Source: Ulota crispa | Taxonomy: Eukaryota > Streptophyta > Bryopsida > Orthotrichales > Orthotrichaceae | Direction: 5' to 3' | Length of the DNA: 64,000 nt | Assembly: GCA_963920765.1 (NCBI GenBank) | Contig: OY987242.1 | Location: 21,476,002 to 21,540,001, forward strand | Part shown: positions 1 to 56,055 of the stretch, piece by piece | Layout: each line of letters opens with the position of its first letter | How positions within the stretch are numbered: position 1 is the stretch's first letter | The notes under the pieces: model-generated | Seen by the model: only the letters and a program-made list of their open reading frames with translations | What the model was told of the DNA's origin: nothing | The model's database searches: none | Translations under genes and position numbers: made by a program

Positions 1-114
1 AATTCCCCATCATCCACAAAAGTTTCATAATATCATGCAAAATAGTTTAGCCATAAGGACATGCCCAAAATTGCATTTATCCCCTAAAAGGTGGCTTGGT
101 CCTTTAGGGGTTAA
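1..114. mobile_element. TTAA-bounded MITE, family P1, right end only
   Basis: The right end of an element cut by the window edge. It finishes with CTTTAGGGG followed by TTAA at 111-114. The preceding ~100 bases match, in reverse orientation, the left end of the P1 copy at 1867 and both ends of the palindromic copy at 19950. The local CCCCTAAA at about 91 and TTTAGGGG at 103 can pair. The left half lies outside the window. Confidence 0.7.
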
Positions 115-135
115 AGTGATAGTTTTAGAGTATAC

Positions 136-450
136 TAAGGTAGGAGGCTCAAATTTTGCTCAAGCTCTAAAATTGTTCACCTTCTCAAATGTATTGTGTG
201 ATTTCCATAGTCTTCAACAACGTCCAGATAGAGTTGAGGAAGAGGACAATTTTGAAGCCCCATGCCACTTCTACCTCAAATTTTCATAATTATTTCCACA
301 AAGCTCCAAAAAATATAAAACAACTTGGGTTAAATGCCAATTCCTCTTGTCTTTCAAGAGAAATTTACTGAAAAATATTTTAAGAAGTCTCAGCTTCCCA
401 AAATTCAGTTTCAGCCCTTACATGGTCGGTTTATGAGCCTCCTACCTTAC
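136..450. mobile_element. MITE, AGGTAG superfamily, family M2
   Basis: About 315 bp bounded by TAAGGTAGGAGGCTC at the left and its complement GAGCCTCCTACCTTA at the right. The segment just inside the right end (about 390-440) is homologous, in inverted orientation, to the left ends of the copies at 19621 and 56210. TA is present at both outer edges, which would fit a TA target. No coding capacity is seen. Confidence 0.7.
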
Positions 451-853
451 CTACAGTACTTGCAGTAAAATCTCCTTCAAAAGCACCATTCATTTTCCTT
501 TTTTCGTAAGAATTTTTAAAGCGGAGTTGCTGAGGATAATGTCGGTGCTCCACTATACGAGAAAATGCCACCTGTCAAGATGCGATTAATTTGGGCATTA
601 TAATCCAAAACAATGCTTGTGTATCCAAATTCTATCGACCCTATCCTCTCAGATGCACCGTACTGTGAAGTAAATTACTGTAGTGATATACGGGGTTGTA
701 GTGTGCCGTGGCAGCTGTAGCTTCGTACACGTGGTATGTAGGACAGGTCACGACTCACGACTAGAACATTGTCGATGTACCCCTCTATATGACGCACTAT
801 ATATGCTTTTGCTTGGTGTAAATTGAGAACTTGTGATTAGGTAGAGGCATCCA
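451..853. other. Intergenic, nothing recognised
   Basis: Unique-looking sequence with no convincing ORF, splice pattern or terminal repeats. Slightly higher GC than the surrounding repeats around 640-780. Confidence 0.4.
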
Positions 854-53500: not shown

Positions 53501-54464
53501 AGCCTCAAAAAATCAGTCCCAAGTTTGGATCAACTGTACGGCATCTCTTGCACCAGAAGATCAGGGATTCCTACATGCATCCACAGTTCAATTCAGACGT
53601 GATGAAGCCTCTACAGATTGAGGCCCTCATGGACCAAGAGGTTATTCACCTTTCGGGAGGAGAGCTGCAACGTGTCGCCCTGTGTCTCTGCCTTGGCAAG
53701 GTAATTCAGGCATTTTATTAATGTTATTCAATGTGATTCTCTCATTGTCATTCGGTGTGTTAGTCTATTTTATTGATGGTCACTTGTAGATTTTGGTTGC
53801 TTAGTTGATAAGATGCATGTGTCCTTTTTGATGTGTATCATGCGTTTTACAGTGGTCTGATATGATTGTTAAATACCAAGGTAAGAAACATCCAGTTTAT
53901 TAACTACTGGCGATTATCTGATTGAATGCAGCCCGCGGATATTTACTTGATCGATGAGCCAAGTGCATATCTTGATTCCGAGCAGCGAATTGTAGCAGCG
54001 AAAGTTATTAAACGATTCATCCTTCACGCAAAGAAGACGGCCTTTGTGGTGGAGCACGATTTTATTATGGCCACATATTTGGCTGACAGAGTGATTGTGT
54101 ATGAGGGAAAACCGTCTATTGATTGTGTTGCAAACACACCTCAGAGTTTGCTAACAGGGATGAATCTATTCCTTTCGGTATGTAACGAATTCTGCACCTG
54201 ATTTCCTATGTTTACGTGTGTTCATGTGTTTGCTGCTGTTCTATCAGTACAGAGTTTAGTGAACTTTTTGTCCAAGACATATTTGTATGAATTCTGGTAC
54301 AGCAGCATGTCTTCTATTAACACTGTGGATGGGTCATGGAACAGCACTTGGACATTACTTTCCGGCGTGATCCAACGAATTACAGGCCTCGTATCAACAA
54401 GCTTGATTCGACTAAAGACAGGGAGCAAAAGCATGCAGGATCATACTACTACTTAGATGACTAA
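50508..54464 (+). CDS. ABCE1: ABCE1 / RLI1 ribosome-recycling ATPase (11 coding exons, 605 aa)
   Basis: Exons: 50508-50610, 50721-50806, 51243-51340, 51621-51738, 51989-52078, 52192-52496, 52729-52924, 53099-53284, 53431-53700, 53932-54177, 54345-54464; every junction keeps frame. The N-terminus holds two 4Fe-4S sets: Cys16/21/25/29 and Cys55/58/61/65 ([12 protein letters not shown]). ATPase 1 has Walker [10 protein letters not shown] (~110-118), signature [12 protein letters not shown] and Walker [13 protein letters not shown]. The helix-loop-helix insert is present ([20 protein letters not shown]). ATPase 2 has [21 protein letters not shown] and [12 protein letters not shown]. The C-terminal hinge ends RPRINKLDS...YYYLDD. 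The protein splits post-termination ribosomes in the cytosol and is essential in all eukaryotes. Length matches the family exactly. Residue 135 is Val, where I recall an acidic residue as usual. Confidence 0.98.
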
Positions 54465-55146
54465 AAGCTGCGCGTTGAGCCCAGTTCAAAGTCTTGGATG
54501 AGGGTACTTTGTACCAGCGGAATATTATTGTACCATTTGTTTTTCAGCCATAGGCACGGTCACTTCAATGAACCATGTTGCTGGGATTCTTGGAGCTTTC
54601 CTGTAGTGTGCACAGAACCGGGGTTTTCCCATCCTTGAACTGACCTTGAGCGCAACATAAGTTGTGTGGTCTCTTCTTGGAGTTTCTTTTTCTCGAATTA
54701 AAACTCAGTGCTGAGGGTACCTGTTCTGGAGGGTTGGGGATTAGAAGCATGGAGATAGGGTGGACGGTTGCCATTACTGAGAGATATTGAGGGCATGGCT
54801 TCTGACGTTCTCACTTAATACTATGTTTCACATTTGTGAATTTACTTGCTTCAGTAATATTAGAAATTATCTTTTCGGAGGTGTAGACGTTTCACTGAGG
54901 TAGAGATAGATACTGAGGGAAGAAATTTTTGGTTGAAAATAGAGGTTAGAGCTTGGAGGTTTAGTGATATAGTGGTTTTGACCAACTTCGTTTCTTGAAT
55001 GATGAAACTGTGCGCCCATTGTTTGATATAATATAATAAACGATGATTGTTTCTAAGATTGAATACAAGATGTTTCAGTGACGCAGGACCTAAATTATGA
55101 CTTTCAGTCCAATTCTCAACTCGCTGCTTCAATAGGGGATGACTCT
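54465..55146. other. ABCE1 3' UTR and intergenic sequence
   Basis: The first 300-400 bases are probably 3' UTR. No further gene or repeat is recognised before the P1 element. Confidence 0.4.
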
Positions 55147-56055
55147 TTAACCCCTAAAGGACCAGGGCCCCTTTTTTTAAGAATCATAGCAAGTTTGGCC
55201 TGTGATTGGAGCTTTTCATATTTTAGTCTGAAATTTTAATAGAATGTGGGGACGAGGTTTATCTTTCATATGCACTAAATTTTATGACATTTGGAATTAT
55301 GAGTAAAAAGTTATGGTCTAATATGTTGCTTTTTACGTTCGAGGGGCAGCTTGGGCAAATTTTTAAAAATCACTTTTTTCAAAAACAGATTGGTTTAAGA
55401 GATTTATGTGAACGTAGGAAGCTTTCAATCATTTTGTTTTGATCAATGAGATGAAAGTTATGAGGATTTTTTGTTTGCGGGCAGTTATGGATTCTCTACT
55501 CTAAAATAAACTTTGAAGTCCTTTATTTAACTCAATTTTCAACATTTTGGAAAAAAAACAAAACCAAAGGATGTAGATTGTTTATTGCAACATTATGACC
55601 ACTGGGATTGGCATTTTTCATTTCCATAATTAAATTCTTAACAATTTTGTGTTTTTGAATCATTCTCTACTTCTTTTTACTAACTAAATTTTTTTCATAT
55701 GTTATACAACTTCAAATGATTTGAAACTTTTTTGACATGTACTTTACTTAGGTGGAATAAGGAATTTAGAGAAGCATCACCCACATGGCCTTTTATCCTT
55801 CGGAATTTCACCTTCTAAAGGGTAGCTGCCCGGTTTTTCACAAGACGTGTTTGAATATTTAAACCATTCTAACTTCCAATCCACGTGGTGGAAAACCCTG
55901 AAATTTTATCCACATCTTCTAAAACCATTCTTCTACAAGATTCTATGATCACATATGCATAAAAAGTTTTTGTTTTCAAATTTGGGTTGATGCTCTAAAA
56001 ATGACAGTTTTGAAGAGTTTTTGGTGAAAACTTTGCTTGGTCCTTTAGGGGTTAA
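55147..56055. mobile_element. TTAA-bounded MITE, family P1
   Basis: 909 bp between TTAA (55147-55150) and TTAA (56052-56055). Left CCCCTAAAGGACCAGGG, right GCTTGGTCCTTTAGGGG. The interior matches 1867-2795 closely over several hundred bases. This is the best-preserved P1 copy in the window. Confidence 0.85.

Follow-up and report, generated by a model that had tools for sequence, protein, structure and literature searches.

Elements of the piggyBac superfamily have short terminal inverted repeats (TIRs) that typically start CCC; T. ni piggyBac is about 2.5 kb long with a CCC end, and piggyBat has a bat as its host. As set out in the available part of a piggyBac structure paper, the ends are nicked, 4-nt TTAA hairpins are formed and then opened, the element is joined to an unpaired TTAA target, and one TTAA is restored on excision. 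Here we analyze a 64,000-nucleotide stretch of the Ulota crispa genome (the window; C1:21476002-21540001, C1 being contig OY987242.1 of a genome of 274.8 Mb in 157 contigs), together with 6 kb upstream and 200 kb downstream (270 kb in all; coordinates in this longer stretch are window coordinates + 6000, and adding 21470001 to them gives C1 coordinates). The window is dense in TTAA-bounded repeats, and we hold with high confidence that these are non-autonomous transposons of the piggyBac superfamily, that is, miniature inverted-repeat transposable elements (MITEs), in a plant nuclear genome that also houses their mostly decayed partners. This follows from paired ends, a 4-bp target duplication, an empty site, genome matches to the transposase profile PF13843 (DDE_Tnp_1_7), and the resemblance and co-location of MITE-like ends with those matches. 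The individual MITE families look like shortened derivatives of longer PF13843-encoding elements (about 5-7 kb where both ends are assigned).

Eleven complete TTAA-type elements of 220-929 bp and part of a twelfth occupy 6319 of the 64000 window bases (9.9%), and the repeats fall into at least five sequence families (alpha, beta, gamma, delta, and epsilon, with gamma-like elements as well). They are listed here in window coordinates, none with an assigned strand, with the left and right flanking bases separated by a slash.

1..114, right part of a 711-bp alpha element with CCCCTAAAGGACC ends, TTAA/TTAA, TIRs CCCCTAAAAGGCCA / CCCCTAAAGGACCA
1867..2795, alpha MITE of 929 bp, TCAA/TTAA
3735..4387, beta MITE of 653 bp, TTAA/TTAA, both-end TIR CCCCTAAATGCCCA
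7485..8137, beta MITE of 653 bp, TTAA/TTAA, TIR CCCCAAAWCGAC
9146..9398, gamma MITE of 253 bp, TTAA/TTAA, left start TTAACTC
14336..14555, delta MITE of 220 bp, TTAA/TTAA, right TIR CCCCTGAACGGCC
19950..20692, alpha MITE of 743 bp with a long hairpin, TTAT/TTAT flanks
37778..38026, gamma-like element of 249 bp, TTAG/TTAA, assigned by end motif only
38263..38817, beta MITE of 555 bp, TTAA/TTAA
46004..46802, gamma-like element of 799 bp, TTAA/TTAA, right end reading TTAATCC on the reverse strand
47616..47857, epsilon MITE of 242 bp, TTAA/TTAA, left TIR CCCCTAAAGGA
55147..56055, alpha MITE of 909 bp, TTAA/TTAA, both-end TIR CCCCTAAAGGACCA

The 711-bp alpha element at window position 1 starts 597 bases ahead of the window, the hairpin of 19950-20692 has 259-bp arms that are 91% complementary, and the beta MITE at 38263-38817 shares 86% identity over 332 bp and 91% over 225 bp with that at 3735-4387. 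A preliminary description of this DNA had named ten elements and the partial one, all of which are real repeats with inverted ends, and its several sequence families are borne out; one element that it began at 7495 really begins at 7485, 10 bp away, and 37778-38026 was missing from it. The uniform TTAA-CCC/GGG-TTAA ends that it described are strict in six of its ten elements, and the other four deviate by one or two bases. MITE 1867-2795 is itself flanked by the arms of another inverted repeat (1821-1865 and 2871-2915; 45 bp, 91%) and may be nested inside a second palindromic element.

End pairs of this kind are enriched. Counting as strict any TTAACC...GGTTAA pair whose TIRs agree at 11 or more of 14 bases, we found six in the window (3735-4387, 7485-8137, 14336-14555, 38263-38817, 47616-47857, and 55147-56055). 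Not one appeared in any of 200 dinucleotide shuffles of the window, and the 15 remaining TTAANN motifs gave 0-2 pairs in the real sequence. Similarly, pairs within 4 kb in the 270-kb stretch number 17 for TTAACC (some with a common end) versus 0-6 for 15 control motifs. Genome-wide, the exact alpha end with its TTAA, TTAACCCCTAAAGGACC, occurs 4072 + 4082 = 8154 times and its reversed control not once, and many opposite-strand copies lie ~900 bp apart among the 100 places listed. The excess is much smaller (1.4x) for bare TTAACCC, with 94,222 occurrences versus 65,105 for the reversed control. Three same-orientation alpha right ends with 58-bp spacing form a small tandem array at C1:22709365-22709509.

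The target of these elements is TTAA, and its duplication is 4 bp. Among 30 elements in the 270-kb stretch, 24 have TTAA on both sides (a count that is partly circular, most elements having been found by a TTAA criterion), one has TTAT on both sides, and five have an unequal pair. Variant targets are more telling about duplication length, and we paired the first 100 places each of TTATCCCCTAAAGG (119 + 95 in the genome, control 3 + 2) and ATAACCCCTAAAGG (108 + 123, control 0): TTAT or ATAA stands on both sides as a direct repeat in 14 elements, 19950-20692 among them, and as an inverted one in two, with no pairs facing outward. The earlier view that the TTAT/TTAT flanks of 19950-20692 signal a real target duplication was thus right and generalizes, and the length check that went with it gives 4 bp by direct repetition of variant targets. 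An empty site is provided by a nested element (222361-222609 in the stretch) lying inside a relative of window element 7485-8137 at C1:21692018-21692902. The empty relative reads CTTTAACC within CTTTAACCTCAT and the filled copy reads CTTTAA-CCCTTGAG...CAGGGG-TTAATC (TTAATCTCAT), that is, one TTAA versus two. A second nested element (174514-174926 in the stretch), whose boundaries the comparison shows, has TTAA on both sides and TTAT in two empty relatives, so that the single TTAA anticipated for empty sites was found in one nested case and TTAT in the other. Some neighboring elements have a single TTAA in common (161565-161568, 222898-222901, and 257794-257797 in the stretch), as one would expect where the terminal TTAA of an element itself serves as a target.

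The genome contains transposases of the PF13843 family. The profile has at least 120 genome matches, all over the curated cut-off and spread over contigs C1-C11 (best E 1.3e-73); this count is a lower bound, with 116 of 528 first-look candidates scored, and it includes a few loci that are split into two matches. The preliminary description had reported no transposase here, which agrees with the ten window open stretches checked and is false for the genome; the genome search that it proposed yielded these matches, some of them at loci with the same kind of TTAA ends. Because 110 of the 120 matches listed carry stops (none in the remaining 10), transposase activity today seems unlikely or would be limited to a few copies. 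Fourteen control genomes gave no PF13843 match, but GRAS, with 62 matches in U. crispa, was likewise absent there, so this comparison is uninformative about plants.

Five loci were taken with long flanks, namely A (C4), B (C2), C (C3), D (C5), and E (C6). Five of the nine open stretches scanned in them reach PF13843, with E from 1.1e-48 to 8.1e-63 in loci A, B, D, and E and 8.8e-5 for a second piece of E; the remaining four (three upstream, one downstream) had no match. Against the PDB, the locus E stretch matched only T. ni piggyBac (E 2.8e-25) and piggyBat (1.8e-18), and its TxDE and xDNxFT motifs aligned with those of T. ni piggyBac. GVDxVDQ, which we take to be the site of the third catalytic Asp, is read in loci B and E, and locus A has GVN. 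By eye, loci B, C, and E each show a C/H-rich C-terminal stretch. Mutual identity among four fetched transposase stretches is just 34-64%. Upstream of two transposase domains, the stretches L030:3-350 and L031:4367-4969 are similar (GKQLRYLFYRHIAKLLGW, ARKWRYLFCRQIAKILGF) and have no Pfam match; they are perhaps an N-terminal domain common to these elements. We also observed transposase or GRAS matches that come in oppositely oriented pairs, 10-109 kb apart, the two members scoring the same or almost the same (C2:36765124/36779670, C7:18203169/18223004, C10:676128/785346, and C2:15289761/15300149), which are inverted duplications or assembly effects.

Some transposase genes in this genome lie between TTAA ends like those of the MITEs. 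In three of the five loci the domain has an assignable end of this kind on either side, clean in C and imperfect in D and E. Element C is 5027 bp long, with TTAA-CCCCTCATCGCCAA at 3976, CCCTTCATTGCCAA-TTAA at 9002, and the domain at 6501-7637 of the joined locus; element D spans 952-8040 (7089 bp, imperfect ends) and element E spans 1893-8728 (6836 bp, imperfect ends). Locus A has the right end TTAACCCTTTAGCGACCATGGTTG and, following its damaged left end, a stretch like that of MITE 174514. In seven further loci, examined 0.6-2.3 kb downstream of the domain, a right end was found in six, and the motifs were of right type in eight cases versus left type in one, with ~2.8 expected per orientation in this MITE-rich background.

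Sequence likeness ties these loci to individual MITEs. At its start, C shares 88% identity over 41 bp with the end of MITE 223427-224080 (stretch coordinates), which in turn is 79% identical to window element 7485-8137 over 579 bp and 78% identical to 3735-4387 over 450 bp. The first 216 bp of D are 67% identical to MITE 174514-174926. The right 480 bp of E resemble window element 46004-46802 (60% across 478 aligned positions; BLAST gives a single piece, 65% over 184 bp, E 7e-5), and both ends of E are, by eye, like those of window element 9146-9398 (CCCTTGAGCGCCCAG, AGCGCCCCWGGGGC). Co-location points the same way. A motif built from the ends of A, D, and MITE 174514 occurs 50 + 70 times in the genome (control 0), and six of the 100 places listed sit downstream of a listed transposase match, at distances of 1093-2378 bp and all facing inward, two of these six loci having shaped the motif and four not. 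No other arrangement occurs within 8 kb, and random placement, which used guessed lengths for C8, C10, and C11, gave a mean of 0.043 and a maximum of 2 in 1000 runs.

Several results weigh against reading the repeats as piggyBac MITEs with resident partners. D and E have left ends that were hand-picked because they come after a TTAA and look like MITE ends; these match the right end at 17/28 and 15/28 bases and rank second and fourth among the upstream 28-mers. The left end of A is damaged, and the whole of A has no BLAST match in the 270-kb stretch. There is no clear TTAA-CC end in the 10.5 kb of locus B and none in the 1.7 kb of L043, one of the fetched downstream stretches. A MITE nested downstream of a transposase could also mimic a common end, and L048 and L046 each have two candidate right ends. 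In all three cysteine-rich C-terminal stretches, no Pfam match exceeds the cut-off. The second empty site is TTAT rather than TTAA, and neither list contains a partner for 168 of the 200 listed variant ends, as would be expected after one-sided later mutation or where an end is cut off. The weakest step concerns alpha (CCCCTAAAGGACC), the commonest family, which lacks a full-length partner and is the least secure assignment: no alpha element with a transposase and both ends was found among the fetched loci, and the left end of the C7:11819342 locus was not recognized in the 3.4 kb upstream (1.0 kb beside the domain being outside the stretch read), where there is only a doubtful TTAACCCCTAAATC site. 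Furthermore, alpha right ends on C1 (the first 100 of 976 places) lie near none of eight transposase loci, a null result that is expected if MITEs far outnumber full-length copies.

These alpha results, with no complete partner and 100 listed ends away from all eight C1 loci, are what would be seen if piggyBac were present but alpha came from a different TTAA superfamily such as Sola3, whose target is TTAA, and merely resembled the other families. We regard this as improbable, given that three of the seven sampled downstream stretches (L042, L048, and L046) have alpha-type right ends 1.8-2.1 kb past the domain and that their likeness to alpha-like MITEs extends beyond the TIR. L042 (C7:11819342) is 70% identical to one alpha-like MITE over 604 bp, L046 (C1:30795509) is 86% identical to another over 403 bp, and L048, 1.4-1.8 kb downstream of the C9:12442616 match, shares 73% identity with window element 1867-2795 across the right 361 bp of that MITE. 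The L048 match comprises the right MITE part only, with no left TIR upstream in the fetched stretch, making a nested whole MITE less likely.

Kolobok MITEs, mobilized by a THAP-bearing transposase, likewise use TTAA, according to the part of PMC6004289 available, where Kolobok ends begin RR (AG, AGGRR). The ends studied here are different, with C at the first, second, and third end base in 58, 56, and 57 of 60 ends (30 elements of the 270-kb stretch), and they are carried by PF13843 transposase loci. THAP (PF05485) had no genome match, which is weak evidence since no positive control rang. A Kolobok origin is accordingly very improbable, more so than a separate origin of alpha.

Reading the repeats as Tc1/mariner-type MITEs with a TA duplication in a preferred TTAA context draws on the palindrome, as TA, TTA, and TTAA are formally indistinguishable when every copy is TTAA, but its probability is negligible: with a TA or TTA duplication the variant outer base should not recur as a direct repeat, whereas TTAT and ATAA do recur as 4-bp direct repeats (14 vs 2), and the loci that carry these ends encode PF13843 transposases. 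A common type in plants, with TWA targets, is the PIF/Harbinger (Tourist-like) MITE. It would make a 3-bp TTA/TAA duplication, which does not predict that the outer base co-varies on both sides, as it does here; we give this no better chance than Tc1/mariner. The available part of a survey of MITEs in 207 plant genomes names the Harbinger superfamily. Kolobok, Tc1/mariner, and Harbinger were thus set aside on the CC-starting ends, the 4-bp variant duplication, and the PF13843 partners.

If the repeats are piggyBac elements, the transposase would bind CCCYTNAANGNCC-type ends, the element would be cut out through TTAA hairpins and joined to a new TTAA with duplication of the target, and excision would restore a single TTAA, leaving no footprint. 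By analogy with the described system, we infer cross-mobilization of the MITEs by resident transposases, the hairpin chemistry, and the seamless excision.

Among other features, the window products include a DUF7733 protein, a family of plant range, an ABC ATPase, which we take to be of ABCE type, and a copia-type reverse transcriptase. The first open stretch of a phosphoglycerate kinase gene at 24977-26634 matches PF00162 and has weak PDB matches only (best 3uwd, E 1.3e-15), as if the enzyme were of an unusual type. A TIR-NBS-like open reading frame, judged by eye and presumably moss-like, lies ~144 kb past the right end of the window; together with the DUF7733 protein and the GRAS genes, it marks the host as a plant. 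Other dispersed or hairpin repeats at 14985-15308, 9917-10375, 13453-13773, and 60278-60701 have roughly two to five relatives each in the 270-kb stretch; in the hairpins at 13453 and 60278, the arm ends differ from TTAA-CCC.

The preliminary description called piggyBac unusual in land plants, and the literature in the parts available is in keeping with this, although one fern annotation table (PMC6890710) carries the label. The 207-genome survey names five other superfamilies and Micron; TTAA occurs 0 times in its main text, and a literature listing counts 0 for piggyBac. In one abstract, plants are mentioned as a source of piggyBac with nothing further said, and among the open-licence papers listed, judged by titles and the beginnings of abstracts, none was a study of a native land-plant piggyBac. 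We lean slightly towards a plant lineage in which piggyBac became a major DNA transposon, with transposases of several divergent lineages and MITE ends in the thousands. If true, this would be a natural plant transposon system with expected footprint-free excision, in contrast to the plant DNA transposons known to date, whose footprints are noted in the available part of a review. Such a piggyBac-rich plant genome could escape plant pipelines that know only the surveyed superfamilies, and plant genome engineering could draw on its native ends and its transposase lineages. The origin of the superfamily in plants would also become testable, as vertical descent with loss elsewhere versus horizontal gain.

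T. ni piggyBac (PDB 6x67, 6x68) is among the known systems nearest to the elements described here, with which they share a PF13843 transposase (E 2.8e-25 over 284 chain residues), the TTAA target, the 4-bp duplication, and the C-rich ends, and from which they differ in having a plant host and, where two ends are assigned, lengths of 5.0-7.1 kb. The piggyBat transposase (PDB 9c0f) belongs to the same family (E 1.8e-18). Xenopus T2-MITEs/Kolobok, as presented in the available part of PMC6004289, are similar in being TTAA-bounded MITEs with a presumed resident autonomous partner, and dissimilar in their RR termini and THAP-bearing transposase. The PiggyBac row in the C-fern repeat table (PMC6890710, seen in part) likewise concerns a land plant, with 1,230 elements and 122,417 bp, but is an annotation label averaging ~100 bp per element, with no ends, target sites, or transposase given there. 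The superfamily is well known, and it is the host and the scale that are unusual.

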